64,000 nt of DNA from Gracilariopsis chorda (lineage: Eukaryota; Rhodophyta; Florideophyceae; Gracilariales; Gracilariaceae), in the NCBI GenBank assembly GCA_003194525.1, contig NBIV01000299.1, positions 21,091 through 85,090 on the forward strand. Direction: 5' to 3'. The translations under genes and the position numbers were made by a program. Positions 5,633 through 64,000 of the stretch are shown here, piece by piece; positions within the stretch are counted from its first letter, which is position 1; each line of letters begins with the position of its first letter. The notes under the pieces are model-generated. The model made no database searches, was not told where the DNA came from, and saw only the letters and a program-made list of their open reading frames with translations.

Positions 5633-8231
5633 GTGATGAAGATGTATCAAACCCCCAGAATGCGCCCTCAGTTGTCATGGAACCTCGAGCAGTCACTCAG
5701 GTCAATCCCCTTGTTGCAGAGACGCGGTCAGCGGTTACTCGGGTCTACGATCACCACCTTACTCTATCTTGGAGGCAAAATTGAAAATTATGCAAGTTGC
5801 TCATGGCTCCTTGTTGGAGGATCTACACAGCCTTCGAAGAAAGTTCGATGACACCAAACTCAGGGATGTGTCTGGAGACATTGTCCTCCTTTGTAGTGAT
5901 ATAAATTTCATCTTGGAAATGCTGGGCACGCTCACTGCCTTAGCCGAAGAGTCCAGGGCCCTCCAAGAGAATAACTGTGTGAATACCGGACGTTCAGCTG
6001 CTTGCTTTGAGACTTTAGAAGCGAGAAGCTGCTTGAAAGCGGAAGCCACAGACAAAGATGCAGGTCCACATCATTCCAATCATCACTCGCCGGCTCGTCC
6101 CCGTCACAGGGATAAGAATTAGTTTGATATCCGATCGGATTCATCAGGTTCAGACTCTTCTGATAATGGTTTTTCCGAGGCATCGGAAGGTGTAGACAAT
6201 CACCGAGCATCTCAGAGGACCCCTTCCAAGTCGTCTTTCGCATCTCAGGGTGTTACAAGTACCCTTGAGAAAGGCCTGCGACATCGCGGTTAAAGAAAGA
6301 TCAAATCTACGAACCCAATGTATCAGAAAATTTTATCGTAGCGATACTATCGACTGGACGATTCTTCGTCAGGACGTAGCTCTCGATGAACGGGAAGAGT
6401 TAAGGACTGCATCAAGCGTATGGGTCTCGTTCTCACGACGAAGTTTTTCGGAGAAGATACTATTCTTATATTGGATTTCTTTGCAGAGTATGTTCAGGGG
6501 GCTTATGTTCTCAGAATGAGGGAAGCGTATGCTTATATTGCGCTGCCGTACGTCTTGTCGGGCGTCACCGAAGATCAATTCAATTCCGTACGAGGAATCT
6601 CGAGAGCCTCGGGAGGAGGAGTTAATTGCTGGCCTGAAGGCATTAAGTACCTCCTACGGTCTTGCACTACTAACGACGTGATTCAGGATGCGATTCTCGC
6701 TCTCCGCGATACGAAGAAAAAGTCCGATGAGACGGAGATTGTATATTCAAATCAGTTTAACAAGGCTTTACATCGGTTTGGAAATGTTTACTCGACACAG
6801 TAGCGGTGCACCATGTTCATTGATGGCTTGGATCCTTCTGTTCGAGCGCTAGATGCGCGATGACGTGAAGATATGCGGAAGATTTCCTATCTGGAACTTT
6901 TCCAGTACGCCCAAGCTGAGGGTGAGATTCTTCGTGCTAGACAAGGCCCGAAAGGTTTGGACGAGGACTGCCAGGGCTCTTCTTGTTGACGACTAAACGA
7001 CGTCTTTGTCTATTGGTCACCAAGGTACGGCTCATGCGGGCGGTTACAATATCTAGTTCGTTGGAAGTTGCTCAGATTCCATGGTTACAAGTGCGTTACC
7101 GTCAACTTCGGTTGAAAGTGCTGAAACAGATGGAACGCTATACGTAAAGCACAACAGGATAACTTCTCCTTCTCTCCTATGCGAACAACACTGTTCATGC
7201 CAACCGCCCTGGTTGGACAGACTTACAGCCACATGTTAGGAACCAAGTTGCAGTGGTTGAATTGGTTGGAAGTCAATGATGATGTCCAAGTTTGAAGTTT
7301 CGAACATTCACCGGGGTTTATATAGAGTTTCTAGTCTAGTTCTATCAGTGCCACTAGTCGATGAGAATTCGTCCGAGTTAAACGATATGATGCTTGGTGT
7401 TCGTGGTGGTCTCCGTACGCGAATGATTTACCTGGTTCAGTGCCAGATCTAGTCGTTTAATGACTAGGAAAAATTCCATCAATGCTGATGACTTGTCATC
7501 AGACAAGGTCCTGATGATCTGGCATGGACCCAGGGTGCCAGTGATGACTTGGCACGACTTTCTCGGCAATCTTTCGTGACCGTTCGATCCTGGCTGTACC
7601 ATGTAAAGTGTCTGTAAACTTTGTGGGTAGTAGGCACGTGTAATTTATAGTCAAGATGTCCGCGTGGTCAACCAAGACTTCTTTCACATGAACATGTTGT
7701 CATGTCATATTGAGAGGGTGTCACGAAAATGCCAACTCGGCTTTGAGGCCAGTTTGGCATGGCAAGTAGGTAGCCGACTTCTTCAGCACATCAATTAGAA
7801 TACCAATAGCTGGTTTGTCCTCGTTGAAACTGGTGCTATAGCCAAATAGATCCATAAAAGGTAAATAATAACTAATTCTAACACCCCGTCGTGCGGAATT
7901 CCAAAAAATCGATTCCTTGATAATCTATAATGGATTTTGTCGTTTTGTTCACGTTGCACCACGATTTAATCTGCAAGCCCGTGAGTTCCACAAAGGTCTT
8001 GAGAACTACAAAGCTTTGTCAACCCCTGATAAAAAGCAGATCCCGAGTCTGACGTACGAACGGGCAAGGATGTACTTTGGTTTCCAGCCTTCTGTAACCC
8101 CGGTGCAAACAAATCCAGGACTGACTTCTGGTGCTCAACAAGAGCAGAGCGCACCAGTGCAGGGCAATCAGTCAATATCTCTGAATTTAACTAGTCCACC
8201 AAGTGCTTTGGATAAACCTCCGAAAAACTGA
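5633..8231 (+). pseudogene. Gypsy A gag remnant
   Basis: Capsid-like polyprotein that would assemble the retrotransposon particle. The piece at 5769-5960 matches the coiled N-terminal part of gypsy B Gag (S.LLEDL.SL..., SDINFILEMLG against SDVNSVLESLG). The piece at 6420-6803 matches its core (GVTEDQFNSVRG, GGVNCWPEG, ILALRDT). The piece at 7917-8231 matches the C-terminal end after the zinc knuckle. The pieces are in different frames with intervening stops, and the zinc knuckle itself is lost. Non-functional. Confidence 0.75.
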
Positions 8232-8389
8232 ACTTAGGAGTCTCCCGTACGGGAGGGGCGTCTTCCGAGCCGAAGTTAAAGACGTCTCAAGCGCCTTCGC
8301 CTTGCTCCCCAGTCACTATCCTGAATAGAAACCTGGCTCAAAACGACGCTGACTCGGAACATCTCGAGGTTCTGCATCGTCCGTAGATA

Positions 8390-11300
8390 TGGTCCCGTAA
8401 CCTCCATTTTCCAGATAGAGTTTTCGTGATGGCTAAGGAGAATTATGAGGTATATGCCGACCACGGCCTTTCACACCAGTTCCTGGTTAGACAGTTATCT
8501 ATTTTAGATACGGGGACCGCCCCGAACCTGATCAAGTCAGACTTGATACCCCCCGTTCTTCGGGCTCACAATCAAGAGTGTCTACCATTGGACATAGGTG
8601 CTGCGAATAAATACCTATTGAAAACGGTTGGGAATCTACCTTTGTCAATTCGATTCGGTAACTGTGTTGTCCAATTGAGTTTGTGGTTTGGGACTCACTG
8701 GCTGCTCCAGTGACTCTTAGATGTGATATCTGTCATCGATCCATCAATGCCATTCGCCCCTGTGCGCAATTATTGGAGTTGGAGGATAGATCTTCCGCCC
8801 CTATTGTCAAGGCGCTACTGAAGCGGGCTACGCGCAAGTAAGTTCCGTTGCCTGCTGCCTATGACGTTCCGGATACTTCCCCAGCTTCAAAGAAGATTCG
8901 AATTGCTAAGTGAATTACCGTACCACTGGAATCCCAGATGTGGGTCATAGCCGTGTCTAAACAACATGAAGCTTGCGTTTTGCAGCCAGTACCCTCGCCG
9001 TACGACCAGCGTCAACTTACGTTAGTGAATGGAGTCGTTTCCGTGGAGCCAGATAAACTATTCGAAGTACTGGTGGCTAACATTGTCCAGACTCCGCAAA
9101 GGTTAGTAAAACAACCAATTTTGTTGGAACCGTGCTGCCACATCTAGCCGCTATCGTGCCGACAAAGGTCCCAGTTTCCGAAGTCCTTATCCTCCTTGAT
9201 TCTAAAGAGAAGGAGGAGAGTAACAGTCTGAGCTCGATTCGGATGCCGAACAGTTTGAAACATCGGAAAGGAAGCCATCATCTGTTGATGCAGAACGGAT
9301 TGATCCTGTAGTAGAGAAAAATAGCATTGGGTCTCAGTCATGTCCTAGAATCTCATCGTAAGAGGATGAAGGACATGCTCAGACAGTTCACTCCCATGTA
9401 CGACAGTTCCCTTGGAAATATTGGAATCACCGAACATCGAATGGATTTGCTACCAAACACTTGGCCAATGGCTCAGCACCCTTATCAGGCTGAACCGAAA
9501 GCTGGTGAAGAACAGAAGTCTTAGGTTGAGAAAATGTATGGAGCAGGCGTCATAGAGCCTGGCTCAGTCCTCTTGGGCATTACCAGTAGTGTTGGTGCCT
9601 AAACTGGATGGGTCGTGGCACTTTTGTATCGATTACTACCGCCTTAACGTGGTGATCGTCAAAACGGTTTACCTGATCCCTGGAGTGGACAGATAAATTG
9701 ACTCACTTGGTAATGCGACTGTCTTCACCACTCTGGATGCATATTGGAGAAACTGGCAAGTTTCTATTCGTAAGGGGGACCGCGAAAAAAACTGCTTTGG
9801 TGAGGCACCAAGGACTGTAACGTTCCAAACGGATGCCTTTTGGGTTAACCACTCCCCTGGATACATTTCAACGGCCAATTGATATACTATTAGCTCGATT
9901 AAAATGGAACACGTGTCTCCTGTAACTTGACGACATAATAGTATACTCCAATAACATGGATGATCACTTGGAACACGCGACAGAAGTCACGAGAGTACTG
10001 ACAGACGCAGTCATGATACTGGAGTTGAAGAAATGTGGATTTCGCACTGATATAGTAAAGTATCTTGGCCATATATTCCGCCCAGAACAGCTCTCTATCG
10101 ATGAGGTACGGGTGAAGTCCTTGAAGGTGGCCAAGGACCCCAGGACTCAGGCAGGACTCCGATCTTTCGTCTGCTTGTGCAATACATACCAGCGTTTTGT
10201 ACCACACCTCACTGAGATCGCAACGCTTCTTCACAAGCTCCTTTGCAGATGACAACCAGTTGAACTGGAACCAGTTGGGGACGCCAAAGCGTCCGACAGT
10301 TCGTCCCTTGTGGACTCTGTTACGTGACTGCCAATATTGGTACTTCCCGCTCCGAAACTACCGTTTGAAGAGGATACAGATTATAGGCGCTATCACAAGA
10401 CGGTGACGCAAGGGGCCAAAATAAATGACAAATTAGTCTAAAAAGGGTGTTCCAGGTAGCTCGAAGCCCCAACAAAATGAAACGACACGAAAAAAAGATC
10501 AAACGAACAACCAATGCGGGGACCAAAAGGACTCAACCTGCAACGATAACAACATATAAAAAAGGAGATTACAAGGCTCAATCCAAATACAAACTTCTTG
10601 ATACTTCTTGAAACGGCCCACAACCGAAGAATTATTTCAAGGGTTACAAGGAGTCAGACTCCCGGCTTCCGGTAAGACAATCCGGATGTGAAGTGATTTC
10701 TGCAGCCTACCCACTTCTGCACCAACCACAAGCAGGTGCATACAATCCTTACAGAGCTTCCAAAGGAGAGCTACTAATAGCGGGATATGCTTTCACTCTA
10801 TACCCAATCTGGCCCTTTACAGGAGAGGTTGCGCGGCACGTCGCCTGCGGAAAGCTTCCCGTCAAGCACCTCCGTCCGGAAACAACCAGGTCTTTCGACC
10901 GTTACCGTTATCCGAGCAAAGCTCCGGTGGGGGCCCACAGACGACAGAAGGGCCTTTTGTACACACTACCCGTCTCCCTTCTACGCTAAGGGCGCTTCAA
11001 CCGGTCTCAGCGACGGTAATGCCCCACCCCAAGTATGCGCAAAGCGGAAAGCGCCTCACTAAGTGCGGTTGAGATTGGATGGTTGATATTAGATGTTGAG
11101 ACAGTTTTGGGGGTGAGGAAGTTCAGATGTGATTCTTGAGATGAGTCCAGAACAAAGTCCGGGACTCAACTAGCCCTTTTATAGTGTCAAAAAGGATGCA
11201 AAACAACACAGAAACGCATTACTACTTTCTACTTACTCATGTGTGCGTCTAGGTTACTCCATAGGCTTCCAGAAGTCTCTGGAGCTGCACACTGACCAAT

Positions 11301-13100
11301 ATTAATTTAGCAACTGGCGCCTGCATCACCGAAATACAGTAGTAATGCTGGCCCAGCGAAGCTTAGAATGCTCCAGACACTGCTGGAGCACTCTACACGT
11401 GTGTTCCAGCAGTGCTGGAACATTCTACCAAGTTCGTGACCGACACGGATGTTAGTAACAACCAAGTTAGTTGCGCACTGTTTCAAACCCCAGAAAATAG
11501 AGACCGAAGTCCTATTGGGTACTGTTCCTGATCACTGAACGTGCACGGGCGCAACTACTCGGAACCGGAGAAAGAATGTCTGGCTGTGGTTTGGGCCTTA
11601 ACGATAATCCAACTGTATCTGATGGAAACTCACTTTCGAGTACATACGGACCACGCAGCACTCCGCTGGTTGATGAAGATCACCAAACCATCGGCAAGCC
11701 TTATGCAATGGCACCTGAGGTTGTCGGAATTGGACTTCGAATTCCTGCAAAAGAAAGAAACCCTGAATATGCACGCAGACGCTGTGCCCCGTTTGGGAAC
11801 GGCTGCTGAAGTTGAAACCATCGAGGACCTCTATATCCCATGCTGTACGGTTGAAGGACCAGAACAAGATTTCCTTATCATATCGGATGAAGTGTGCGAC
11901 GATATTCTCGCTGCCGAGACTTCCGAATCTCCGGCATGTTTTTTTGTGCCTAGTACTCTGAAGGAAATGGTAAGGGAACAAAAAGTGGACTCTTTCTTTA
12001 CGCATATTCTTGCCAGCCTTAATGGAGGATTTTAGCCTCCCGTTGGAACGAATGACCAGGCATACTGTGTCAGATTGCTGAGTTCTACGCCACAGTTTGT
12101 GATGCCCCGATCTCTCCAACAACAGGTGCTTCATTTGTCACATCATGGTAAATTGGGTGCTCATCTGGGCGGAAGAGAGTTGTATCTTACCCTGCGTAGG
12201 GATTTCTAGTTGCCCAAAAAGGCATTTGGCTTTTACGCAGTACGCCTTGCTTGTGTGGAATGGGCTGACAATAACGTGAAGCTTCGAAAAGACTCGAAAA
12301 AGATGACCTTACTCCCGGCAATGGCCCCGCTTGAATTGGTGGCAATTGATATCTTAAAAGAGCTGATCAAGACTGCGCGAGGAAATTCGATCTTGCTCGT
12401 TATTATGGACTGGTTTCCCAAGCTGTCCCATTGAAGAGGATAACCGCAGCAGGGGTTGCCCAAGCGCTCCTGACCAACTGGGTATTCTCCTATGGGCCAC
12501 CGATTCAGTTACTCTCGAATAATGGATTGGAGGTTATGTAAAAGGTATTCCAGGATGTCTGCAGACTCTTTGGTATCAGGAACCTGTTTGTCATAACCTA
12601 TCATCTTCAGGGGAACGGCCAGGTAGAGCGATTTAACCGTACACTATTGAACTCACTGCATGCTTATGTTGCAGATCACCCAAAGGAGTGGGACCTCTAT
12701 ACTGAAGTATAGAGAAGCGATCACCTATGCGTATAACTCTCAATTTCATCTAGTCACGTCTCTCTCGCCATTAGCACTCTTCCCGTCAAGGATACCACCC
12801 CCGTGTCCACTGAAGTGCAAGCTATGCTTTCAAACTACCCGTCACCACATCTATACTAGGACGCCTGGAAACAATGGTTCAAAAAGATGGTACCAGTGGC
12901 TCGGAAGGCCATGGTGAATGCTCAATCGAGTAATAAGCGAGATTTTAACGCTCGAGTTATGCGTCCCCTTCTCGAGGTGAACATTAGTGACGACTTCTTC
13001 CTTTGAGAGAAATTCTATAATCCTGAAAAGGAACGTCGTCACAGACTATTTCCTGTCGTGTAACGACCTTATCAGATAGTCTCTACGGACAAAGACACCG
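8390..13100 (+). pseudogene. Gypsy A pol remnant (protease, RT, RNase H, integrase)
   Basis: Order as in gypsy B. Protease is at 8426-8713 with LDTG; RT at about 9480-10250. In the RT active-site box the codon before LDD is TAA (9923-9925), replacing the expected Tyr. RNase H starts before the inserted block (LPAPKLPFE, about 10340) and resumes at 11432 (FVTDTD), continuing to 12035 with SEPEKECLAVVWAL and TDHAALRWLM. Integrase is at about 12130-13050 with ELVAIDIL and a decayed second Asp (LSNNGLE). Many stops and frame changes make it inactive. Confidence 0.8.
10363..11424 (-). mobile_element. 1.06-kb insertion in gypsy A RNase H, LTR-like
   Basis: It interrupts the RNase H reading between LPAPKLPFE and FVTDTD. 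The 5-bp CTACC occurs immediately before (10358-10362) and after (11425-11429), consistent with a target duplication. Within it, 10448-11422 starts TGTTCCAG and ends CTGGAACA, as LTRs do, and on the minus strand there is a TATA-like box (ACTATAAAAG, about 11177-11186). No coding domain is visible. A solo LTR of another retroelement is my best reading. The 85 bp between 10363 and 10447 are not explained by this. Confidence 0.45.
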
Positions 13101-22884: not shown

Positions 22885-24292
22885 CTAACCTCTTGAAATG
22901 CTTTCAACTATGCTCAGATTTTTCCGCTGTGCTCTGTCCATATCAGCAGAAGAGGGACTCGAATGCCGTTGCGATGATTCATGAGATACGTCTCGTAGCT
23001 CCCAAGATGAAGAAGATGTACGTTTTTTCTTCGAGTTGAATCTCTCCGTGTATCCTTTGATTCTGCGTTTCATTCTAAAATATCCTTTATTTGGTGGTTT
23101 GATCGCTGTGTGTTCCTTATTTCCAGAAGCGGAAGTCACAAAGTGGTTTCTTTGCAAACCAGGAAGGCTCTCTAAGTCTGAGACTAAAGAAAGTGGTGGC
23201 ACCCATACTTGAGATAACACGTCACGGACTTTTTCCAAGATTTGGTGGACGCGCTCCACCGCATTCATATTCATGCTTGGTGCAAGTTTGTGGCATTGAT
23301 CAAATAGTGCGATTCCAGCTGCTCTCGTCACGTAGTTCTGCACCTCCGCGTCTTCCTTTTTGCACACTATGTCATCGAAATCAATACCCGTCTCTTTTGT
23401 AGCGGATGTGCGCAGCAGCTTTTCTAACTCTTCTTCTTTATACACTCCTTCATGCTTTCGTGCTTCGCTTGTATGTTGAACAGAAATTCCGCGATCAGAT
23501 GCTTTCCAGTATGGATCAAAAAGTTGGTGACTGGGGATGCAGTCGTCCAAAACGTGACTTACATCCGGTAGTCTGAGAAGTTCTTCTGGGTATACATATA
23601 CACATCTCACAATGTGTCTACACAGAAACCCCATTGTTAGGGACATGCGACAGCTGCATGATGCGAGAAGATTGCTCTCTGGGCCATTATCAGTTGAAGT
23701 AACTGTAGTTGCGAACAAGACGACAACTGGTGTAGACTGTGGGTGCAAAATCGTGGATGAAGAGGTCGGAGGTCTTCGCTGCTGCAGTTCAAATAGCACT
23801 ACTGGACCAATTGAGCTCCCGTGTTCTAAAACCAGTCCAGAACAAGTCTCGGTGTCGTAATCGATCACAGATGTTGAGATAACCGCAAAGTGTTTTGCGC
23901 TTTCGATGCTCAGCTCTTTGAACTTCGTGAGAGAGTACGTCGTGTACTCTAGTAGAAGGGAGTTCAGAACTGCGTCAGGTAACGGTAGCTGGCAATCTCG
24001 TAGAGATCGATATCCACTGCTCAAAGAAGATACTGACTTTGTGCGTGCTTCCTGTCGCCTGTCGTTTCTTTTCAACGTTTGTCGACGAATTGCGTAGGGA
24101 ATATGAGCCTTCTTAGACAGAATATAGGCCTTGTACCCAAAGTTGGATGACTCCGTGTAGCCAGTACCTTGGAAAAGGTACCTCTTAGGGACGGCTAGGT
24201 CTTTAAAGCAGCTCACGACCATGTGCGGCTTCTTCAAGTAAAGGTATTGATACCAAACTGGAGGTCTTTCCCCAAAATGTTCAAAGCACTTT
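22885..24292 (-). pseudogene. MULE transposase, C-terminal part (SWIM), truncated by gypsy B
   Basis: The open minus frame runs from the LTR junction at 24292 to a stop at 22885. It begins at FEHFGERPPVWYQYL and shares about 600 bp with the right copy (34103-34718). It continues past the point where that copy ends and includes a SWIM zinc finger, CSCRMSL...FLCRH (plus 23615-23665), which in MULE and FAR1 proteins follows the catalytic domain. The Lys/Arg/Ser-rich C-terminus (RFNSKKKRTSSSSW) could be a nuclear localisation signal. It lacks the DDE residues, which survive only on the other side of the gypsy. Confidence 0.8.
23686..24292 (-). repeat. Left copy of the ~607-bp duplicated MULE segment flanking gypsy B
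   Basis: Aligned with 34103-34718 except for scattered substitutions and one 9-bp indel (right copy longer, VPFS against A). It begins at the ATTATCAG that abuts the 3' LTR on the right, and ends exactly at the 5' LTR. Confidence 0.85.
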
Positions 24293-25117
24293 TGAAGTGC
24301 AACGCCCTCAGGGAGGGATTCTGGGTACTTGATCGTTTTCCCGATATTATCGGTTGTGTAGTGTGTGTATGAACTCCGCCCCACAATGGTGGGTATGGAC
24401 ACGTGGGACACGGTTTTGGGCCAATTGGCGGTTGGCCACAGTAGTGAATGTTGCCACGAAATGTGGAGTATTTTAGTTGATTTTATTTATTATTTCCACA
24501 CCCATTTCTGGGAAGCTAGTACTTAGTGCGACGGCGCACTGCCGTCGCACCAATAAACCTTCCCCAACAAGGGACCCCAACCTGGGGAATTGGCTCTAGT
24601 TGTTGCCGCTTGCGCGCGTACTCTACTCCTCCTTGGAGGGAAACGCCGTGAACCACGGGACATCTAACCCCCTTGCACATCTAAAGGGACCCATCACTCG
24701 GAGTATAATTGTTCCAATTGCATTGGTGTTTCGCTCTGTATAGGGATATTGTTACCGGCATCGCCGTTCGTCCCCGTAGCTCTCGGGACTCACTTCGCCC
24801 TCTCTTCCTCCTCTTCGCCCTTCCTTTTTCCCCTTTTTAGGGTAGCACCTCCCGCTATCCGCGGCTCTGGTGTGCGCATCCGCCCACACACCCCCATTTA
24901 CGTGGAAACATACCTCTACTGAGGATCACACCCCGCTCACGCGGATACCGATTTTTCGTCTTCACCTCCCTGCCCAAGTCGCGACAGGTGTCCCTGGTCT
25001 TACAAACCAGCTTAGCCGTGACACCTCTAGGAGGGCTCTACCCAACTGGGTTCACCTCGTGAGAGGAAGATCCCGAACGTCTTTCGGTGTTTTTCCCCTT
25101 TGGGGCATTGCACCACA
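24293..25117 (+). repeat. Gypsy B 5' LTR (divergent variant)
   Basis: 825 bp, TGAAGTGCAACG...TTGCACCACA. Aligned to the 3' LTR it differs by indels and substitution clusters around 24595-24680 and 24740-24830, whereas the 3' LTR and the gypsy C LTR agree there. Confidence 0.9.
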
Positions 25118-25120
25118 AAG

Positions 25121-25138
25121 TGGTCTCCCGACCTAGAA
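25121..25138 (+). promoter_or_regulatory. Primer-binding site of gypsy B
   Basis: TGGTCTCCCGACCTAGAA starts three bases after the 5' LTR and begins with TGG, the complement of a tRNA CCA end. Its first ten bases would pair with a 3' end CGGGAGACCA. That fits, for example, the yeast tRNA-Tyr acceptor, but I cannot identify the alga's tRNA. Confidence 0.6.
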
Positions 25139-25222
25139 TCGGTTTTTGTTTTCCCTCTTACGAGGTTTGTTTTTATTTACCGGAAGTTCCGTGATCGTTT
25201 CCCGTCGTAACGGTATTTTCTC

Positions 25223-27396
25223 ATGTCGAGAAATCCCTCCGATGCGGAGCCAGTGGTTACGCGTAGTCGCTCCCGCGACAACGCGGACACTTCCGAAGTC
25301 CGGTTCGTACCCCTCATCCGTATACAGACAAGTTCCAGCCGTACTGGCGCCACTTTATCGCGGAATGATACCCCCGACCGAGAACCCCGGAACCTCCTTT
25401 TGCCCTAGTTATCACCCACGCAGGGGAATGCAGCATCGACTCCAGCTGTTGCCGCAGTGCCCCAGGCACACCGGCCTACTCCCGCTGTCGCGGCTTCAAG
25501 CCCCCGTGGAACGGGCGATAACACCCCCAGGGGACTCCCCTGGAATCCCAGGTCCGCGACCTGTGGTCCGCCCATGACACCCTTGTAGGGGAACTAAGAT
25601 CCCTCCAAGAGGTGATCTTGGCAACCCCCGTAAAGGAGGTCGCCGAGGAACTCCGTATTTTACGGTCTGACGTCAACTCCGTGTTGGAGAGTTTGGGACA
25701 ACCCGCCACCTTCATCGAAGGAGTTGAAGCCCGATTTGATCGGATTGGTGGCCGCCTGGAGACGCTGGAGCAGTTCGTCCTCATGGACAAACCATCCCCG
25801 GATGATCCGGTAAACCAGGCATCGCACGACGACCAGCTTGCTGGGAAGAAGAAACGCCGTCATCGACGGAAACACCAACGAAAATATTCGCACTCCGATT
25901 CTTCGACATCGTCGGACTCATCCCGAAACCATTCGGTTAGCTCGAGCTCGTCGGACTCCGACTTGGAGGACGAGAAGCGAGGCTACCCCTCCCGATCGAA
26001 GCGGTCATCGGAAACTGAAGGTGTGGTCCGAAACCGCCAGAAGGGGAGAAGACACCCCGCTCTCCGGGAATTGAAACCGACAAACCCGGATTACCGGAAA
26101 CTTTTATCATACCGGTACTACCGGCTCGAAGATTCGTCACTTGGACGTACGCCCCGTGGTACGGGAAAGGTGCGAGAATGCATTAAGCGAATGCAGCTCT
26201 CGCTCCGCAACCAGTATTTTACTAGAGAGGACCCAGTCCTCGTACTGGATTTCCTATCCCGATTTGTGGCGGAGGCCGATATCCTCGGTATGAATGAGGT
26301 AAAAGCCTATTTAGCTTTACCGTATTTCTTACGAGGAGTGGCGGGGGACCAATACAACTCTGTCAGAGGATCTTCTCGTGCCTCCGAGGGAGGAGTTACT
26401 TGCTGGCCGGAGGCTGTGCAGTATCTACTGCGCTCCTACGCTACAAACACCGCTATTCAGCAGGCTATCCTCGCTTTGCGAGATACACGCCAGCGTGCTG
26501 GAGAGACCGAGACCGATTACTCGGTGCGCCTTAACAAGGCTTTCCACAGATGTGGTAACGTGTACCCCGCTGAGGAGCGCAGTACCATGTTCATCGATGG
26601 TCTTGACCTGGCAATCCGGAGTTTAGTTACCCGTTATCGGGAGGACAAGCGGAGGATCACCTATCTCGAGCTGGTTCAACACGCTCGAGCGGAAGGGGAT
26701 GCACTCCGTGAAAGAACTCCGAACAATCGGTCTAAATCCGCCAAGGCGTTGTTGCTGGAAAGCGAAACTTCTTCTCTCCCGCTCACCGCGGATGAGAACC
26801 CTGGACAGGGATTTGATACCGTGAATTTAGTGCAGGAGGATGGTGTGTCGATACCCACCAGTGATTTACCGTCAACGACGGAGATGATCCGTGATACGGG
26901 AACGGAAGACCCCGTTTTGTACGGTGGTAACAGTCGGGTTCAACCCCAACGAGTCCCGTTTTCAAACGGTCAATCCCGTTATCAACGGCCTGGACGGACT
27001 GACACCCGCCCTGCGGTTCGCTTCTCCGATACTCGGAATAATAACCCGCGTGTCGCGGTATTGGCTCTCATTTGCCACCTGTGCTATGCCCATGGCCATA
27101 CCTCACCTCAGTGTATTTGTTCACTGAAGGATATGGCCAAGATAGGAACAAATTATGAGGCCCTCCCTCCAGAGGAGAAACGTTCCGTCCCGACGGCTTC
27201 CTACCTCCGTGCTAAAACGGACTTTTCCCATGCCCTACCTCAGATCCCGCGTGCGCGGCAAGCTTCATACACCCCGATTCAGGAGATCACGCAACCATCC
27301 GTTGCAACCCTCGCTTATGCGGATAGCAACCCCCGTCAACGGGATGAAGCACTCGTTGTCAAGGAAACCAACCCACCGCCGAAGGCGGAAAAATAA
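25223..27396 (+). pseudogene. Gypsy B gag, N-terminal part broken
   Basis: Gag builds the particle and binds the RNA. ATG at 25223 (MSRNPSDAEPV) opens a frame that meets TAG at 25406-25408 and continues Pro/Ala-rich to about 25587. The main frame (from 25522 to a stop at 27394-27396) is one base offset, so a frameshift lies between about 25520 and 25590, possibly in the C5 run at 25524-25528. The main frame has a coiled region, a Ser/Arg-rich stretch, a capsid-like core (about 26170-26700; GVAGDQYNSVRG, GGVTCWPEAV) and a CCHC zinc knuckle CHLCYAHGHTSPQC (about 27073-27114). Confidence 0.75.
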
Positions 27397-30300
27397 CTGA
27401 GGGAGTCTTCCCTTTGGGAGAGGCGTCCTCAAAAACGAGGCTGTTGGCGCCCGAGGCGTCCTCGCCTCGCTCCCCGGTGAAAGTCCTCTCGAGGAAAGAC
27501 ACCGCTGACGCGGACTCTGCACACCTCGGTGTGTTGCGTCGCCCGTGGATACGGAGTAAAAATCCCCGGATTCCCGGTAGAGTCTTGGTCTTCGCCAAGC
27601 GCAACTATAAAGTCTATGCTGACCTTGGCCTTGATCCCCAGTTTATGGTGAGGTTTCTCACTGTCCTGGATACCGGTGCAGGCCCCAACTTTGTTGTGGA
27701 ATCATTGTTACCCCCGCTTGTGCGGTCTCGTATCCGCTCTGACGCGGTCCCCGACATTTCGGATGCGAACAACAATCCGTTACAAATTGTGGGCACAGTG
27801 GACCTCGTCGTGAGACTTTGTACCTCTGTGGTGAAGTTGGACTTCATCGGTTGCCGTTCATTGGCAGCACCAGTCATACTGGGATGTGATAACTGCGACA
27901 GATTTGTCGACGAAATCAGGCCCCGCCTCAGGCGTGTAGAACTTGACGACGGATCGTCGGTTCCGATTGTTCGCCGCCCGCTAAAGCGGTCCTCTCAGAA
28001 ACAAGTTCCGCTCCCTGCTGCGCAGGAACCACCACCCGCGTCCCGCGAGTCCACCAAGCGCAGCGTCGCTGTCTCGGTTTCTATACCAGCTGAGTCCCAG
28101 GTCTGGGTGCAGGTAAATTCCCGTCAACACGGTCTTCGGGTTATACAACCCCTCGTCTCGTTGTACGAGAAATCCCAGCTGGCGCTGGCTAATGGAATTG
28201 TCTCCATTTCCCCAGATGTTCCTTTCCGGATATTGGTTGCCAACCTTGGCAAACACTCCCAGTATCTGGTAAAACACCAAGTAATTGGGAGTGTAACCCC
28301 CCATCCTATGGGAGTGCTGCCAACAAAGATGACAGCCGCCGATGTAATCGGAGTTACCACCTCTTCTGAGGAGTTCGCCCCGCCGTCCGAAGACGTCAAG
28401 TCTAAGGAGGGGGAGGAAACCGCTACTTTAGCGTTGAACATACCGAGTAACTCGGAATTGCGAACCACACCTGTTCCACAGGACAATGCTCCATCGAGCA
28501 ACGACCGGATTGATCCGGAAAAGGCACTCGAAGCGCTGGACTTTAGCCACGTGCCAGAGTCGCTCCGCGACAAACTCCGTACCATGTTACGGGAATTCAC
28601 CACAATGTGGGATGGCTCGCTTGGCGAGATTAACGCAACGGAACACCGGATCGATTTAATCCCCGGTGCGCGACCGGTTGCACAACCCCCTTACAGGGCA
28701 GGTCCGAAAGCTCGAGAAGAGGAGCAGTCCCAAGTGGACAAGATGCTCCGCGCAGGTGTGATTGAGCCCGCTCAATCACCCTGGGCATCCCCAGTTGTAC
28801 TGGCTTTAAAGGCCGACGGAACCTGGAGGTTCTGTGTCGACTACCGCCGGCTCAATGCCGTGACTGTTAGGGACACGTACCCTATCCCTCGTATGGACGA
28901 GTGCATTGACTCCCTTGGAGACGCCACCGTGTTCAAGGCCCTTGATGCCAATTGGGGATATTGGCAAGTACCTGTCAGACAGGAGGATCGCGACAAAACC
29001 GCATTCACCTGCCATACAGGAACATACCGCTTCAAGCAGATGCCATTTGGGTTAACCAACGCCCCCGCCACCTTTCAGCGTGCAGTAGATATTCTACTCA
29101 ACCGCTTTAAGTGGCGGAGCTGTCTGGTCTACCTTGATGATATTATCATCTTCTCCAACTCGTTGGACGACCATCTCACTCACGTCCGAGACGTGCTGAC
29201 CGTACTCCGCGATGCGGGAATTACCCTCAAGTTGAGGAAATGCGAGTTTTTCACAGATACTGTGAAGTATCTGGGTCACATTATCCGTCCTGGACGGTTA
29301 GCGATCGAGAAAGCTCGAGTCAAATCCCTCGTTAAGGCGAAAGAGCCCCGTACTCAAACGGAACTGCGCTTCTTTTCGGGGCTGGTCAACGTCTATCGAC
29401 GGTTTATCCCGAACTTTTCGGATACCGCGGCGCCCCTGAACGCGTTGTTGCGAAAGGGGAACCCCTCAAAACTGGGAACATTTACGCCCGAGCAATCGGA
29501 AGCTTTTAACTCCTTGAAGGAGGCTGTCTTATCAGCACCAATCCTATATCTCCCAAAACTTGGGCTGCCATACTCCGTAGATACGGACTCGAGCGACTAC
29601 CAAGTCGGGTGTGCTCTTTCTCAAACCACCCCCGAGGGGGAACGACACCCAATTGGTTATTGGTCGCGCTCGCTCAATGTTCATGAGCGCAACTACTCCG
29701 TATCGGAGAAAGAGTGCCTCGCTGTCGTATGGGCGATGACCACTCTGCGCCCCTACCTTATGGGAGTTCACTTCACCGTGTACACGGATCATTCCTCATT
29801 GAGGTGGTTAATGAATATCTCCGACCCGTCGGGACGCCTCATGCGCTGCAGACTCCGCCTCGCGGAATATGAATTTCAAGTCATTTATAAAAAGGGTGCC
29901 CAGAACACCCAAGCCGACGCTCTGTCGCGGTTACCCACAAGTGGGGAGGCACTCCCAACGGAGGATGATGAAGTCCCATGCTTCATGGCTATAGACCCGG
30001 ATGATCCGGAATATGCCGTCGAGGCTAGGCCAGAAACCTGGGACGAGGATGCTGATTTTGACGAACTACTCGCATCGCGAGATAAATCTGAGAACCCGTT
30101 ACCGGGAAACTTTGTACCGGTATCACCGGAAGAAATGATCCGAGAACAATTCGGCGACCCATTCTGTACGAGAATTCGTGCCCGTATCAACGGTGGTGAA
30201 GATCTCCCTTTCGGGGTAAACGACAAAGGCTACCTCGTAAGAAAGGTCGAAGCCCGCCCACAGATTGTGGTACCACATTCCCTGCAATCGCGGGTGTTAC

Positions 30301-32975
30301 ATCTATCACACTACGCCCCCATTGGAGGTCACCCAGGTGGGAGGAAACTCTACCTAACCCTGCGAAGGGATTTCTATTGGCCCGCAATGGCGGTGGATTG
30401 CTACGCAACTGTGCGGTTTTGTAGCGAATGCGCGAAGAATCGCGTCAAACTCCGCAAAAATGCGAAGAAGATGAAACTATTCCCCGCAAGGGCGCCGCTC
30501 GAGTTTATCGCGATCGATATTCTCGGACCATTACTCACCACGAAACGTGGAAACAAGTTTCTACTTGTCATTACCGACCGCTTTTCTAAGCTGGTACGGA
30601 CTGTCCCTCTTCGGAGGATAACCGCTCTCACGGTGGCCCAGGCTCTGGTGACGCACTGGATTTTTGTCTACGGTCCCCCTGTAGAGGTGCTCTCTGACAA
30701 CGGGAAGCAGTTCGTGAGCAAGTTCTTCCAGGATGTTTGTCGCATCCTGGATGTCAAGAACTTGTTCACGACTACCTACCACCCCCAGTGTAATGGGCAA
30801 GTTGAACGGTTTAACCGGACGTTACTCGCGGCGTTACGTTCCTACGTCGCTGACCACCCAACGAATTGGGATCTCTACGCTGATGCGGTAACCTACGCGT
30901 ACAATACGCAGGTACACCGGACTACCGGAGTTTCGCCATTCGAGTTAGTTCTATCTAGAACACCCCCGCCTGTGGCGCTGAAACCCCAAGCTACCTTGGA
31001 CAATTTCCCATCTGTGGGTATCTACCGGCAGCAATGGAAGCAATGGCTTTCAAAGCTGGTCCCCGCTGCGCGGAAGTGTATGGCACGGGCCCAAGCCGCT
31101 TACAAGCGGGATTTTGACGCTCGCGTGCGAGGAAAACCGTCCCCGATTCGGGCAAATAACTACGTCTTCATCAGGAACGAATACTACAACCCGGAACGGG
31201 AGAAGCGTCACAAACTCTCGCCTGTGGCGGATGGACCCTTCAAGGTGATCTCTGTTAACACCGACACTGTCGTGGTAGAGATGGGGGACACGCACGAACG
31301 GATTTCCCGTGATCGTGTTGTCCTTGCCCCTCCTCCCTCGTCAGAGGTAGTCCTGGATCCAGGCAACCCCGTTTCTACGGACTCTGGAACACCGGAACAA
31401 TCCGGGAGTACTAGACCTACGGTACTACCACACCCCAGCCGGGGACTCTCAGACCTACCGACTCTGTCGGACTCACCGGCTCAGCCGGGTAATTCGGGCC
31501 CCTCAGCGCCCGCCCCTACCACGTCTGCCCCACTGGCGCGCATATATACCCGCCAGGCGGGGAATGTTATCCCTTATCCCGCCGCTCCGTCTAAGGAGGG
31601 GGAGGAGAACACTCGTTTTCGAGGAACGATATCACCGTCGCAACGGGAAACACACCGTAACATACGGAACACTGACCGTGGAGCACGGAGTATGTCACGC
31701 GACACTAATCCCCCGTTCCTGGGCAGTGCTGTGCAACAGGAACCAGACGCGCAGGCCCCGCAAAAGCGGCAAATACACCGTTTGTCACGGGAAAACGAGA
31801 AGCCTCACTCCAATACCGCAGCAGCGGAAAGGCAATCGCCCGATGCCTCGAAGCCGCCGTTGGCGGAAGTCCCCGCGGAAGCGGTTCAATCAGGTCGATC
31901 AGACCCGCGCCCTGCGGAGAAGGGGCGCCCAGATACGCCGGCCTCACAGGGGAATACCCACACCCCTCTTGGGGAAAAAGGCGGCCAAGCTGCAGTCGAA
32001 GCTTTAAGCCCTGGCTCGCAAGCACCGGAAACGCCTCCCGTCGTTGACGGAATCAAAGCCCCCGCTACGGGGAATAATTTGCGCCAACCCCCGCATCGCT
32101 GCGGCGAAGAACCGAGGAACTCGGGAATAATGCGCGCCATCGCACGCTCGAAACCGGTCGTACCGGACGCTGCTCCTCCTCACGGAGATGGTGCACTGCG
32201 CTCAGCGGCAATTCCCCTGAAAAGGGTGTCATCGGCACCTGCCCAGAACCCCCCAAAGGGGAATTTTGACCAAAATACCGGTGTACCGGAGTTAGCCCCA
32301 GGCAACCCGTCAGTAGCCGGGGACACCACGGCGTCGCCGGAACGTATGGTGCAGAGCGCTCGTGCGCCTGGCAGGGAGGCGGTTTGCCACCCAATCACCG
32401 TGTCGCACGGGACCCCCCAGGGGATTGTGGAAATGCCAATCCCGCAGGAGCGGTCATCTTCCCGCAAACTCGCGGTTCGTGAGCTCAACCGCGAAGGCGG
32501 AGCCCAAGTCCCCCGCCGACTGGCGGTTCGCCCGGCCTACCGTGAAGACGGGAACAACGACACCCCAATGGGGAATGACTTGCCGGGGAAAACCGTGACA
32601 CCACACACCCTCTTGAGGGATATTTTCCCGCATGAGCAGCGGCCACTAGGACAGCGCACGGCAACGTCGGAGTTATCGCCGAACACCCTGCTAAGGGACA
32701 TTATACCGCACAGCGGGCAGCCCCCGCAGGGAAGTACAACCACCACCCGGCACGGCCGGCAGGTCTACGAACGAGAGTTCGTAGTAGACCGACTTGTCGG
32801 ACACACCTGGGACCAGGATGGTATTCTACAATACCGCGTCCGCTGGTACGGGTATGACCCCAGTGGGGATACGTGGGAGCCAATCGAACACCTCCCACGG
32901 TCGCAGGTCGTGCGATACCACCGTCAAACGGGAACTGCAGCCCCAGCCACGCTGGTTAATGCCCAAGTTGGGTAA
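27348..32975 (+). CDS. Gypsy B pol: protease-RT-RNase H-integrase-chromodomain
   Basis: Frame -1 to gag, overlapping it from 27348 to 27396; no ATG at its start, so expression by -1 frameshifting is likely. About 1870 codons without a stop. Domains: retropepsin with VLDTGAGP (about 27665); RT with CVDYRRLNAV and LVYLDDIIIF (YLDD about 29129); RNase H with DTDSSDY, SEKECLAVVW, TDHSSLRW and QADALSR; integrase HHCC (HYAPIGGHPGG...CSEC, about 30300-30440), Asp in AIDILGPL (30510), Asp in LSDNGKQF (30695), Glu in QVERFNRT (30800); GPF module (DGPFKV, about 31230); a 480-residue Pro/Ser/Arg linker; chromodomain (VYEREFVVDRL...WYGY...TWEPIEHL, about 32760-32930). Longer than usual because of the linker. 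Confidence 0.9.
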   Translation, partial: STRCQGNQPTAEGGKITEGVFPLGEASSKTRLLAPEASSPRSPVKVLSRKDTADADSAHLGVLRRPWIRSKNPRIPGRVLVFAKRNYKVYADLGLDPQFMVRFLTVLDTGAGPNFVVESLLPPLVRSRIRSDAVPDISDANNNPLQIVGTVDLVVRLCTSVVKLDFIGCRSLAAPVILGCDNCDRFVDEIRPRLRRVELDDGSSVPIVRRPLKRSSQKQVPLPAAQEPPPASRESTKRSVAVSVSIPAESQVWVQVNSRQHGLRVIQPLVSLYEKSQLALANGIVSISPDVPFRILVANLGKHSQYLVKHQVIGSVTPHPMGVLPTKMTAADVIGVTTSSEEFAPPSEDVKSKEGEETATLALNIPSNSELRTTPVPQDNAPSSNDRIDPEKALEALDFSHVPESLRDKLRTMLREFTTMWDGSLGEINATEHRIDLIPGARPVAQPPYRAGPKAREEEQSQVDKMLRAGVIEPAQSPWASPVVLALKADGTWRFCVDYRRLNAVTVRDTYPIPRMDECIDSLGDATVFKALDANWGYWQVPVRQEDRDKTAFTCHTGTYRFKQMPFGLTNAPATFQRAVDILLNRFKWRSCLVYLDDIIIFSNSLDDHLTHVRDVLTVLRDAGITLKLRKCEFFTDTVKYLGHIIRPGRLAIEKARVKSLVKAKEPRTQTELRFFSGLVNVYRRFIPNFSDTAAPLNALLRKGNPSKLGTFTPEQSEAFNSLKEAVLSAPILYLPKLGLPYSVDTDSSDYQVGCALSQTTPEGERHPIGYWSRSLNVHERNYSVSEKECLAVVWAMTTLRPYLMGVHFTVYTDHSSLRWLMNISDPSGRLMRCRLRLAEYEFQVIYKKGAQNTQADALSRLPTSGEALPTEDDEVPCFMAIDPDDPEYAVEARPETWDEDADFDELLASRDKSENPLPGNFVPVSPEEMIREQFGDPFCTRIRARINGGEDLPFGVNDKGYLVRKVEARPQIVVPHSLQSRVLHLSHYAPIGGHPGGRKLYLTLRRDFYWPAMAVDCYATVRFCSECAKNRVKLRKNAKKMKLFPARAPLEFIAIDILGPLLTTKRGNKFLLVITDRFSKLVRTVPLRRITALTVAQALVTHWIFVYGPPVEVLSDNGKQFVSKFFQDVCRILDVKNLFTTTYHPQCNGQVERFNRTLLAALRSYVADHPTNWDLYADAVTYAYNTQVHRTTGVSPFELVLSRTPPPVALKPQATLDNFPSVGIYRQQWKQWLSKLVPAARKCMARAQAAYKRDFDARVRGKPSPIRANNYVFIRNEYYNPEREKRHKLSPVADGPFKVISVNTDTVVVEMGDTHERISRDRVVLAPPPSSEVVLDPGNPVSTDSGTPEQSGSTRPTVLPHPSRGLSDLPTLSDSPAQPGNSGPSAPAPTTSAPLARIYTRQAGNVIPYPAAPSKEGEENTRFRGTISPSQRETHRNIRNTDRGARSMSRDTNPPFLGSAVQQEPDAQAPQKRQIHRLSRENEKPHSNTAAAERQSPDASKPPLAEVPAEAVQSGRSDPRPAEKGRPDTPASQGNTHTPLGEKGGQAAVEALSPGSQAPETPPVVDGIKAPATGNNLRQPPHRCGEEPRNSGIMRAIARSKPVVPDAAPPHGDGALRSAAIPLKRVSSAPAQNPPKGNFDQNTGVPELAPGNPSVAGDTTASPERMVQSARAPGREAVCHPITVSHGTPQGIVEMPIPQERSSSRKLAVRELNREGGAQVPRRLAVRPAYREDGNNDTPMGNDLPGKTVTPHTLLRDIFPHEQRPLGQRTATSELSPNTLLRDIIPHSGQPPQGSTTTTRHGRQVYEREFVVDRLVGHTWDQDGILQYRVRWYGYDPSGDTWEPIEHLPRSQVVRYHRQTGTAAPATLVNAQVG

Positions 32976-33152
32976 CGCTGCCGCGCGAACGGAGGGCGAT
33001 AGGAAAGGATAACAAGGCAAGGTCCGTCGAAGACGGGGAATTCAAACGAGAATCACCGTTCTAAACGGGAAAGTTTATTCAAGGGAGCAGCTAGCTCCCC
33101 ACAACACTATACTACACTGCTGGCTATGCCAGGAAAGAAGAACTAGGAAACA
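32976..33152 (+). other. Gypsy B pol-3' spacer
   Basis: Non-coding; contains hairpins such as CCGTC-GAA-GACGG (33024-33036) and CCGTT-CTA-AACGG (33057-33069), both also present in gypsy C. Confidence 0.5.
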
Positions 33153-33284
33153 ATGGCTGCGGTATCAGGGGCTAGTGACTCTGATGCAGAGGAATTTACC
33201 GGAGAACCGGAGACGGCGCACGCGCATTTATCACCCATTTTCGTCTGGGAACCCTCCGCGTCCGCGGTCGTTTTCCCGTCTTAG
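33153..33284 (+). CDS. Small 43-residue ORF ending at the polypurine tract
   Basis: ATG at 33153 (MAAVSGASDSDAEEF), stop TAG 33282-33284 whose last bases start the polypurine tract. In gypsy C the same frame ends identically (SPIFVWE.SASAVVFPS) at 57497 but has a different, longer hydrophobic upstream part. Substitutions between the copies are mixed silent and replacing, with no frame break over the shared 31 codons. Function unknown; it may be a fortuitous frame. Confidence 0.35.
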   Translation: MAAVSGASDSDAEEFTGEPETAHAHLSPIFVWEPSASAVVFPS

Positions 33285-33294
33285 GGGGGGGATA
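33282..33294 (+). promoter_or_regulatory. Polypurine tract, plus-strand primer of gypsy B
   Basis: AGGGGGGGGATA run immediately before the 3' LTR start TGTAGTGC at 33295; its complement precedes the LTR of gypsy C at 57487-57498. Confidence 0.75.
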
Positions 33295-34102
33295 TGTAGT
33301 GCAACGCCCTCAGGGAGGGATTCCGGGTACTTGATCGTTTTCCCGATATTATCGGTTGTGTAGTGTGTATATGAACTACGCCCCACTATGGTGGATATGG
33401 ACACGTGGGACACGGTTTTGGGTCAATTGGCGGTTGGCCACAGTAGTGGATGTTGCCACGGAATGTGGAGTATTTTAGTTAATTTTATTTATTATTTTCA
33501 CACCCATTTCTGGGAAGCTAGTACTTAGTGCGACGGCGCACTGCCGTCGCACCAGTAAACCTTCCCCAACAAGGGACCCCAACCTGGGGAATTGGCTCTG
33601 AGCTTCACCGCCTCCGCGTGTTCTCAACTCCTCCTTGGAGGGAAGCACCGTAGTGTACGGAAGTTCACCCCCCTTGCACATCTAAAGGAGACCCATCATT
33701 GGGGGTACTAATTGTTCCAGTCATATTGGTGTTTCGCCCTGTATAGGGAGTCCTGTCCACTGGCATTGCCGTATCTACTCGTCGCTCTCGCGACCCACTT
33801 CGTCCTTCCTCTTTCCCCTTTTTAGGGTAGCACCTCCCGCTATCCGCGGCCCTCGTGTGCGCATCCGCTCACACGCCCCCACTTACGTGGAAACATACCT
33901 CTACTGAGGATCACACCCCGCTCACGCGGATACCGATTCTTCGCCTTCACCTCCCTGCGCGAGTCGCGACAGGTGTCCCTGGTCTTACAAACCGGCTTCG
34001 CCGTGACACCTCTGGGAGGGCTCTACCCAACTGGGTTCACCTCGTGAGAGGAAGATCCCGAACGTCTTTCGGTGTTTTTCCCCTTTGGGGCATTGCACCA
34101 CA
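33295..34102 (+). repeat. Gypsy B 3' LTR
   Basis: 808 bp, TGTAGTGCAACG...TTGCACCACA, the same length as the gypsy C LTR (56679-57486) and nearly identical to it. Contains a 10-bp stem hairpin at 33528-33552. Confidence 0.92.
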
Positions 34103-39071: not shown

Positions 39072-39081
39072 CACGGAGTGC

Positions 39082-56678: not shown

Positions 56679-57486
56679 TGTGGTGCAATGCCCCAAAGGG
56701 GAAAAACACCGAAAGACGTCCGGGATCTTCCTCTCACGAGGTGAACCCAGTTGGGTAGAGCCCTCCCAGAGGTGTCACGGCGAAGCCGGTTTGTAAGACC
56801 AGGGACACCTGTCGCGACTCGCGCAGGGAGGTGAAGGCGAAGAATCGGTATCCGCGTGAGCGGGGTGTGATCCTCAGTAGAGGTATGTTTCCACGTAAGT
56901 GGGGGTGTGTGAGCGGATGCGCACACGAGGGCCGCGGATAGCGGGAGGTGCTACCCTAAAAAGGGGAAAGAGGAAGGACGAGGTGGGTCGCGAGAGCGAC
57001 GAGTAGATACGGCAATGCCGGTGGACAGGGCTCCCTATACAGGGCGAAACACCAATATGATTGGAACAATTAGTACTCCCAATGATGGGTCTCCTTTAGA
57101 TGTGCAAGGGGGGTGAACTTCCGTACACTACGGTGCTTCCCTCCAAGGAGGAGTTGAGAACACGCGGAGGCGGTAAAGCTCAGAGCCAATTCCCCAGGTT
57201 GGGGTCCCTTGTTGGGGAAGGTTTACTGGTGCGACGGCAGTGCGCCGTCGCACTAAGTACTAGCTTCCCAGAAATGGGTGTGAAAATAATAAATAAAATT
57301 AACTAAAATACTCCACATTCCGTGGCAACATCCACTACTGTGGCCAACCGCCAATTGACCCAAAACCGTGTCCCACGTGTCCATATCCACCATAGTGGGG
57401 CGTAGTTCATATACACACTACACAACCGATAATATCGGGAAAACGATCAAGTACCCGGAATCCCTCCCTGAGGGCGTTGCACTTCA
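56679..57486 (-). repeat. Gypsy C 3' LTR
   Basis: 808 bp; on the minus strand TGAAGTGCAACG...TTGCACCACA. Closely matches 33295-34102, including CCGTA-CAC-TACGG (57121-57133). Confidence 0.92.
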
Positions 57487-58144
57487 TATCCCCCCCTTAA
57501 GACGGGAAAACGACCGCGGACGCGGAGGATTCCCAGACGAAAATGGGTGATAAAAGCGCATGCTTTGTCTCCGGTTCTCCGGTAAATCCCTCTGCACCAG
57601 AGTCATCAAGCACACAAACGACAACAACAGCCACCCTCCAAAAGGGAAAAATGAACGACGACAACAATATTAACAACCACAGCCAGCCGCCGAGACTTCT
57701 CGGGCGATACACCACCGGTTTCCGGTCAGTTCCCCTGCCTCAGGGCGATCGAAATCCGGTACAACCGGGGAATATGGCTGCGGCAGCCGACCATCCCTTC
57801 GCACTACCACCTTCGGTGGTGTCCTCCGGAACCACTCCGGTGTCCAACTGGCCAACTTACAACACCCTGGTGGGCCTCAACCCGATGAATCGGAATCACG
57901 CGTCGTGCCTGCGCCTTGCTGGGGGTTACGCCCCGGACGATGGGGGTGAGTGAAACCTCTGGTCCAGTTTCCTGGTTCTTCTTTCCCTGGCTATGCCAGT
58001 TAGTGTAGTGTAGTATTGTGGGGAGCTAGCTGCTCCCCTGAATAAACTTTCCCGTTTAGAACGGTGCTTCTCGGTTGAGTTCCCCGTCTTCGACGGACTT
58101 TGCCTTGTTATCCTTTCCTTTCGCTCTCCGCTCGCGCGGCAACG
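57487..58144 (-). other. Gypsy C pol-LTR region with ~340 bp more than gypsy B
   Basis: 659 bp against 320 bp in gypsy B. The edges match (polypurine side and the CCGTC-GAA-GACGG hairpin side); the middle (about 57605-57955) does not align. A minus frame ends at 57497 with the same residues as the gypsy B small ORF (VFPS) and has a hydrophobic stretch (WLWLLILLSSFIFPFW, VAVVVVCVL). It is open from about 57740 without an ATG. The extra segment is itself full of perfect hairpins. Confidence 0.6.
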
Positions 58145-63670: not shown

Positions 63671-63717
63671 GCCAACAGCCTCGTTCTTGAGGACGCCTCT
63701 CCCAAAGGGAGACTCCC

Positions 63718-64000
63718 TCAGTTAGTTTTCCGCCTTCGGCGGTGGGTTGGTTTCCTCGACAAGGAGTGCTTCATCCCGTTGACGGGGGTTTCTATCCGCA
63801 TAAGCGGGGTTGCAACGGATGGTTGCGTGATTTCCCGAATCGGGGTGTATGAAGCTTGCCGCGCACGCGGGGTCTGTGGTAGGGCGTGGGAAAAGTCCGT
63901 TTTAGCACGGAGGTAGGAAGCCGTCGGGACGGAACGTTTCTCCTCTGGAGTGAGGGCCTCATAATTTGCCACCACCTTGGCCATATCCTTCAGTGAACAA
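63718..64000 (-). pseudogene. Gypsy C gag C-terminal part, frameshifted
   Basis: Matches gypsy B Gag from MAK..NYEAL.PEEKRSVPTA on. After QPSVAT one base is missing (near 63804-63808) so the frame leaves Gag. The zinc knuckle and N-terminus lie outside the window. Confidence 0.8.

Follow-up and report, generated by a model that had tools for sequence, protein, structure and literature searches.

Gypsy B and its place in the window

The stretch of DNA analysed here (the window) comprises 64,000 nucleotides of the red alga Gracilariopsis chorda (contig NBIV01000299.1, positions 21,091 to 85,090, forward strand; coordinates below count from the first letter of the window) and contains gypsy retrotransposons termed A, B and C. 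Gypsy B (24293..34102) is packed along its whole length with short perfect hairpins, and related Ty3/gypsy families of this alga carry the same dense array of short Watson-Crick hairpins.

Gypsy B itself is an ordinary chromodomain gypsy with the domain order of a Ty3/gypsy chromovirus. It shares with the chromodomain lineage of Ty3/gypsy elements (Metaviridae) long terminal repeats (LTRs) that end TG...CA, gag, reverse transcriptase (RT), RNase H, integrase and a chromodomain. On the + strand, the 5' LTR (24293..25118) is followed by a non-coding leader (25119..25611), a gag-like open reading frame (ORF) of 594 aa (25612..27396), a pol ORF of 1853 aa (27414..32975) and the 3' LTR (33295..34102), both LTRs being delimited by self-alignment. 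The gag-like ORF has no match in a Pfam scan; a Lys/Arg/Ser-rich basic stretch and one CX2CX4HX4C zinc knuckle were recognized in it by eye. In pol, the Pfam scan gives the order RT, RNase H, integrase, a long low-complexity linker and the chromodomain. The linker (~31400-32700), several hundred residues rich in Pro, Ser, Arg and Glu between integrase and chromodomain, contains a repeated TLLRDI(F/I)PH motif (by eye).

In self-alignment, the 3' LTR of B is 88.8% identical to the 5' LTR and 98.1% identical to the LTR of gypsy C (56679..64000, - strand), an element of the same family that is cut by the window end and was recognized by self-alignment and hairpin counts. Given the 11% difference between its LTRs and the 98% match to C, gypsy B looks like a recombinant of two subfamilies. 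No matching short target-site duplication was found at its ends which, together with the LTR difference, points to later recombination. A direct repeat of 607-616 bp (95.6% identical) adjoins gypsy B on both sides (23686-24292 and 34103-34718), with 5 hairpins against 2.4 expected. It is far too long for an integration duplication, and suggests recombination or insertion beside a duplicated stretch. One hairpin of the 5' LTR, CCGTG-aac-CACGG at 24646, reads CCGTA-gtg-TACGG in the 3' LTR and in C, with the inner pair and the loop changed and the stem kept. Gypsy A (6303..11706, + strand) is older, and 64-67% identical to B in the aligned parts.

Hairpin density and shuffle controls

A hairpin was counted as a perfect inverted repeat with a stem of at least 5 and a loop of 1-6, unless loops of 1-4 are stated. 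Gypsy B (9810 bases) contains 201 hairpins, where dinucleotide shuffles give 50.8 (standard deviation, sd, 7.6), and 57487-64000 (6514 bases of gypsy C) contains 145 against 34.8. This amounts in B to one small perfect hairpin per ~50 bases over the whole length, with about a quarter of the element lying inside hairpins. The density climbs near the start of B and drops soon past its end, the flanking repeat being somewhat dense too. The four other blocks of the window (in 1-22000 and 34103-57486) show 1.04- to 1.42-fold (z 0.3 to 3.5). In order, they hold 67 hairpins against 50.3 (z 2.6), 68 against 56.5 (z 1.6), 57 against 54.9 (z 0.3) and 86 against 60.7 (z 3.5), the first including gypsy A and the last an LTR of C; in 38400-56600 there are 68 against 61.9 expected.

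Within the coding sequence, synonymous-codon shuffles that keep protein and codon usage expect 21.3 hairpins in pol and 7.3 in gag, where 109 and 32 are found, and a stricter shuffle that also keeps codon junctions expects 23.0 and 10.9. Since synonymous shuffling removes the excess, it depends on codon choice. The same shuffles give no clear excess in five other ORFs of the window, namely three host genes (alkaline phosphatase, a short-chain dehydrogenase/reductase, SDR, and an ORF at 47371) and two ORFs of a Mutator-like element (MULE) region (z 0.0-1.7 at stem of at least 5; at most 2.4 over all stem lengths and shuffles). The excess is found in every part of B. The 5' LTR has 10 hairpins (loops of 1-4) and the 3' LTR 9, against 2.7 expected in each (3.7- and 3.3-fold), and the leader 11 against 1.1 (9.7-fold); the excess is 5.2-fold in gag, 6.8-fold in 27414-30400 of pol, 3.7-fold in the disordered linker and 5.4-fold in the stretch after pol (five hairpins). 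Reading-frame phase was ruled out as a factor (10/9/13 in gag, 36/36/37 in pol), as was regular spacing (coefficient of variation, CV, 1.08; no clear period by eye). General repeat richness was also ruled out, mirror repeats of the same size being at chance (45 against 49.9) and direct repeats little raised (73 against 50.9, sd 7.5).

These counts bear out much of an earlier note on this DNA, made by reading the letters alone. Its seven + strand examples are exact, among them CCGAGT-A-ACTCGG (28443..28455), with the commonest span of 13 nt, and CCGTT-ATC-AACGG (26976..26988), with the preferred geometry of five pairs and a 3-nt loop. Its two examples from gypsy C are exact as well, but are found as reverse complements on the minus strand, at 57806 and 57690, both within the ~340 bp specific to C (57606..57966, - strand, by self-alignment; only 24 bases there in B). 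Where it had counted about fifteen hairpins, in 28150-28630, there are 16 against 2.4 expected. The saturation of B and C that it described is far above both the dinucleotide and the synonymous shuffles it had proposed as checks, and the hairpins do disregard reading frame and region. Its statement that gypsy A and the host genes look different is right for the host genes; in gypsy A some excess is left, 1.8-fold (31 against 17.3).

Elsewhere in the window, the host SDR protein is 72% identical to a Gracilaria domingensis protein and 71% to an Agarophyton chilense protein, which places the host close to Gracilaria. Repeats at 1760-5330, 17877-18812 and 39868-41473 (0.7-0.95 kb, 73-78% identity, some inverted), near a DDE_Tnp_4 ORF (40270-40914), are perhaps an old DNA transposon family.

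Form of the hairpins

In B and C, loops of 1-4 are in excess and loops of 3 the most (69 against 8.2 in B). Loop 5 is weak (~2-fold), loop 6 near chance and loop 0 not raised; the range of 1-5 in the earlier note therefore holds for loops of 1-4, with a peak at 3, and the count up to 6 that it proposed reaches into chance. Among the geometries, a 3-nt loop on a stem of 5 bp is the strongest: B has 85 such sites where 11.3 are expected, and all ten representatives of six families have them in 3.3- to 8.4-fold excess. The second geometry is 4 bp with a 4-nt loop. A total span of 13 nt is the commonest (76/193 in B). Half of the hairpins start with CC and end with GG (98/193 in B, 70/136 in C), and C-G is the commonest second pair in all ten representatives. 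The stem tends to stop at five: of 170 five-pair sites (six representatives, 85 sites from B), 19 form a sixth pair where the flanking bases would predict 38.6 (p=1.6e-4; shuffled sequences give 33/147). The bases of the 3-nt loops of B are near even (n=69) and show neither a loop motif nor a clear strand bias.

Related families and elements without the trait

Loci outside the window were taken from the same 91-Mb assembly, among the matches listed in a PF00078 profile search and in a search at the DNA level with a piece of gypsy A. In 66 of the 68 loci first fetched, which are redundant copies of few families, the hairpin ratio is at least 2.4; the remaining two are copies of A type, with 2.05 and 1.45. 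Grouped by DNA similarity, the hairpin-rich families are B, D, E, F, G and H (H being one locus), plus A, and the six are 65-72% identical in their longest alignable stretches. The trait is thus not peculiar to the young family of B and C, at least six related families showing the excess. The loci outside the window are pieces of 2.2-4 kb, so that packing over the whole length is visible only in B and in C (to the window end), and the density outside B is ~9-15 per kb against 18-21.

Three elements of the same genome served as non-carriers. Two copia elements (L093, L094) show no excess (1.30 and 1.41), nor does another gypsy lineage (L095, 0.79), an open frame with RT, RNase H and integrase zinc domain; these three rule out the hairpins as a feature common to every LTR element in this genome. 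Searches with PF00078 and PF07727 gave at least 150 matches each (3380 and 2239 first-look candidates) in the 91-Mb assembly, where gypsy and copia elements look very abundant.

Further afield, a search of IMG/VR for relatives confirmed none, and contigs of GTDB yielded four distant gypsy pieces (L089-L092). L090 over its full length, and L089 and L091 in their matched regions, have no excess, and the matched region of L092 has 2.1-fold (z 3.5); taken whole, L091 and L092 have 1.5-fold (z 2.9 and 2.7). The gypsy-like piece L092, on the bacterial metagenome-assembled contig BQJT01000212.1, is probably eukaryotic contamination. In a protein search, many of the best 120 of 4349 matches are 51-66% identical.

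Selection, covariation and protein cost

Shared variants have mostly passed through active elements, and neutral changes arise after insertion; the same logic has been applied to nonsynonymous changes (excerpt of PMC9073684). For the B family, 28 genomic copies were compared over 28000..30000 (+ strand), which contains 46 majority hairpins and divides into 500 stem sites and 1500 other sites. Alignment columns with letters in under 80% of the copies were left out, two loci (L008, L069) cover only 1244 of the 2001 bases, and loci of 3300 bases or less were left out of the family alignments (leaving 19 of 23 in D and 17 of 18 in E).

Variants found in a single copy of B fall on stems and elsewhere alike (86 and 253, ratio 1.02) and are near even over the codon positions (102, 112, 125). 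Those in at least three copies are distributed over the codon positions as expected under protein selection (7, 3, 36), and 2 lie on stems against 44 elsewhere (ratio 0.14, p=6e-4); at third codon positions it is 1 against 35 (p=1.6e-4). Chance hairpins with long loops were run as a control because the stems are defined from the copies themselves. Their shared-variant ratios are 1.11, 0.71 and 0.37 at thresholds of 0.3, 0.5 and 0.7, which predicts 16.2, 10.6 and 5.4 shared stem variants where the short-loop stems have 2, 2 and 1 (p=2e-5, 0.003 and 0.05). In two further stretches of eight B copies, none of 26 variants shared by at least two copies lies in stems (199 of 1151 sites).

The families were also aligned with each other, using eight representatives (B, D, E, F, three of G, and H), with family A, G-G pairs and gap-touching hairpins left out. 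Among stem pairs in which both bases have changed, the Watson-Crick share is 45% (719 of 1596 cells), compared with 33% (633 of 1897) for long-loop hairpins that arise by chance, the cells being comparisons and not independent events. Hairpins are kept with changed pairs in 82 of 2060 directed comparisons against 24 of 2509, or, as distinct cases, 29 changes at 19 columns against 7 at 6 in the long-loop control. A single alignment column reads CTCCG-tat-CGGAG, CTCGG-tgt-CCGAG and CTCTG-tgt-CAGAG. Because shared variants avoid stems beyond what chance hairpins give and pairs covary between families, the array has the look of a nucleic-acid layer under selection, demonstrated in one family, rather than of a mutational scar. 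The hairpin layer is very probably under selection.

The hairpins carry no visible protein cost. In the RT-integrase stretch (28764-30800), residues covered by stems are as conserved among 17 relatives as the others (0.577 and 0.575 for codons with two and three stem bases, 0.572 for none, 0.507 for one), and the density in the first half of pol (22.1 per kb) is not lower than in the disordered linker (15.0).

What reads the hairpins?

The best explanation overall, to which we give a probability of about 45%, is a selected array that would provide docking sites for the element's own protein. The hairpins would act as many weak, redundant docking sites for a protein of the element, most likely Gag/nucleocapsid. 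This protein would read the shape and the foot of the stem, and the particle may thereby select and compact its own genome. A geometry this narrow, with stems that seldom pass five pairs, speaks more for recognition than for stability. Gag, which coats the genome and has the basic stretch and the zinc knuckle described above, is the natural candidate, and its assignment as the reader is tentative. Three readings had been offered in the earlier note. A selected, perhaps protein-bound structure is the one that survives; template switching is disfavoured, and a generally folded RNA genome fits poorly because G-U pairs are used little or not at all, sense and antisense strands fold alike and the drop in energy is small.

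Several observations weigh against docking sites or against the selection from which they are argued. The test of selection draws on one family, B, in which variants present in exactly two copies are not depleted (16 against 49, ratio 0.98). Shared variants in D, E and F are few and show no deficit in stems (2/13, 3/27 and 0/2 at threshold 0.5; 3/12, 7/23 and 0/2 at 0.25), and G has a deficit no larger than its controls allow (10 against 15.9, p=0.15). Only 69 of 758 hairpin centres match between families to within half a base, where rotation expects 7.6 and part of the 69 is shared descent; most single hairpins thus turn over while the excess stays. The spacing of the hairpins is irregular, and the two strands do not differ in folding. 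On small counts, the families seem to have different outer pairs: C prevails in B and F, H has A, one representative of G has T, and the rest are mixed. The flanks are A-rich on the sense strand in B and C (73 A against 24 T in B, p=2e-6), the one strand-specific sign; this is significant in B only, the other six representatives giving p of 0.06 to 0.85, and the other families are without it.

Docking sites in RNA would also be expected to accept G-U, yet broken pairs show G-U and A-C in near-equal numbers (48 and 40, respectively, in the comparison of families; 38 and 43 in the 28 copies of B). In stems of B and C with one mismatch, internal G-U is near chance, as is A-C. Only one sign hints at the use of G-U, a slight excess of internal G-U when six representatives are summed (153 against 128.7 expected; A-C 132 against 129.3).

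It is therefore conceivable, if rather unlikely, that the hairpins act in DNA, either in the single-stranded cDNA in the particle, in both strands, or as extruded arms of double-stranded DNA. Function in single-stranded cDNA or in both strands would explain why G-U and A-C are nearly equal in number, as if pairing were needed on both strands or in DNA, and why the strands are alike: the RNA folding energy relative to shuffles has a mean z of -1.02 in sense and -1.15 in antisense (41 windows each; -0.38 in 37 windows of 1-22000), which rules out sense-strand RNA stability as an explanation, and the 3-nt loops are without clear strand bias. The slight excess of internal G-U speaks against DNA, as do the strand-specific A-rich flanks of B and C and the both-changed cells, where G-U is no rarer than in chance long-loop hairpins (5.6% against 6.7%). 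For arms extruded from double-stranded DNA, five pairs make a short stem, and a DNA-level function has no known reader. A bolder and unlikely proposal is a second, genome-long code laid over the genes, in which hairpins of fixed size would be recognized whichever strand they lie on. Recognition would probably take place in single-stranded DNA, or else in RNA as well as cDNA, and foot pairs peculiar to each family would mark that family's own genome.

Could the array work with no specific reader? A genome-scale RNA structure might shield the transcripts from host silencing, decay or translation, which would agree with hairpins along the whole of B covering a quarter of it, and with the turnover of single hairpins between families. 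The geometry is narrower than stability needs, however, with loop 6 near chance in B and C and the sixth pair avoided, and G-U is little used and the folding energy only slightly below that of shuffles, which makes shielding quite improbable.

Alternatively, template switching or quasi-palindrome correction during reverse transcription could make and repair the hairpins with no function at all. This mechanism, described for RNA genes, predicts perfect Watson-Crick, strand-symmetric arms and compensatory changes (excerpt of PMC8794818). In B, D and E, hairpin variants carry two or more changes more often than controls do, and in E two changes fall in one arm in 15% of cases against 5%. Against it, single point changes are still the majority (78% in B, control 84%; 82% in D; 57% in E, control 84%), three or more changes in one arm make up 1% in B, the same as in controls, and the 28 copies of B hold one compensatory double change, carried by two of them. 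The mechanism does not predict a ceiling of five pairs or C-G as the second pair; residues under stems are as conserved as others, with no lower density in the first half of pol; and the avoidance of stems by shared variants only is left unexplained, unless correction acts only during reverse transcription. Template switching is thus very improbable as the source of the array. An artefact of composition, codon usage or low complexity, to which the higher G+C content of B than of most of the window might point, can be dismissed, being refuted by the dinucleotide and synonymous shuffles, the mirror repeats and the long-loop controls.

Relation to known systems

Genome-scale ordered RNA structure (GORS) is a structural constraint on the whole genome, and the array of B resembles it in extent; it differs in that the folding energy is near that of shuffles, G-U is little used and the strands fold alike. 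Hairpins of the B group share compensatory changes between relatives with conserved RNA helices. Unlike these, they do not accept G-U in place of Watson-Crick pairs, the slight G-U excess being the exception. With the hairpins made by template switching they share perfect stems and compensatory changes (excerpt of PMC8794818), and they differ in the deficit of shared variants in stems, the lack of a protein-level cost and the fixed geometry. Among LTR elements, no such hairpin array appears in the titles and abstract openings that searches of the open-access literature listed, subscription papers lying outside their scope. Ty3 RNA probed by selective 2'-hydroxyl acylation analysed by primer extension (SHAPE) is described as having a well-folded core of ~20% (excerpt of PMC11381356).

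In function, the dispersed packaging signals of MS2 and other viruses may be the nearest analogy. There, many redundant stem-loops over the genome are read by the coat protein in the proposed model, and the MS2 motif sits in the apical loop and a bulge (excerpt of PMC6281560). The array of B likewise consists of many stem-loops spread over a genome. It differs in having 3-nt loops without a motif, with stem length and foot as the recurring features, and in being known from sequence alone. The hairpin layer is seen as a kind of its own, since it departs in one tested feature from dispersed packaging signals and in another from ordinary RNA helices; if Gag proves to bind the array, it would join the dispersed packaging signals.

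The layer is visible by eye over a whole element, bears a mark of selection in the family tested and has negative controls in the same genome, so that the reader of the array, whether of RNA or of DNA, is directly testable. It bears on the means by which LTR elements distinguish their own genome from the RNA of the host, and on the extent to which their nucleic acid is under selection separately from the proteins. It is also a warning against taking it for granted that synonymous sites in such elements are neutral clocks.

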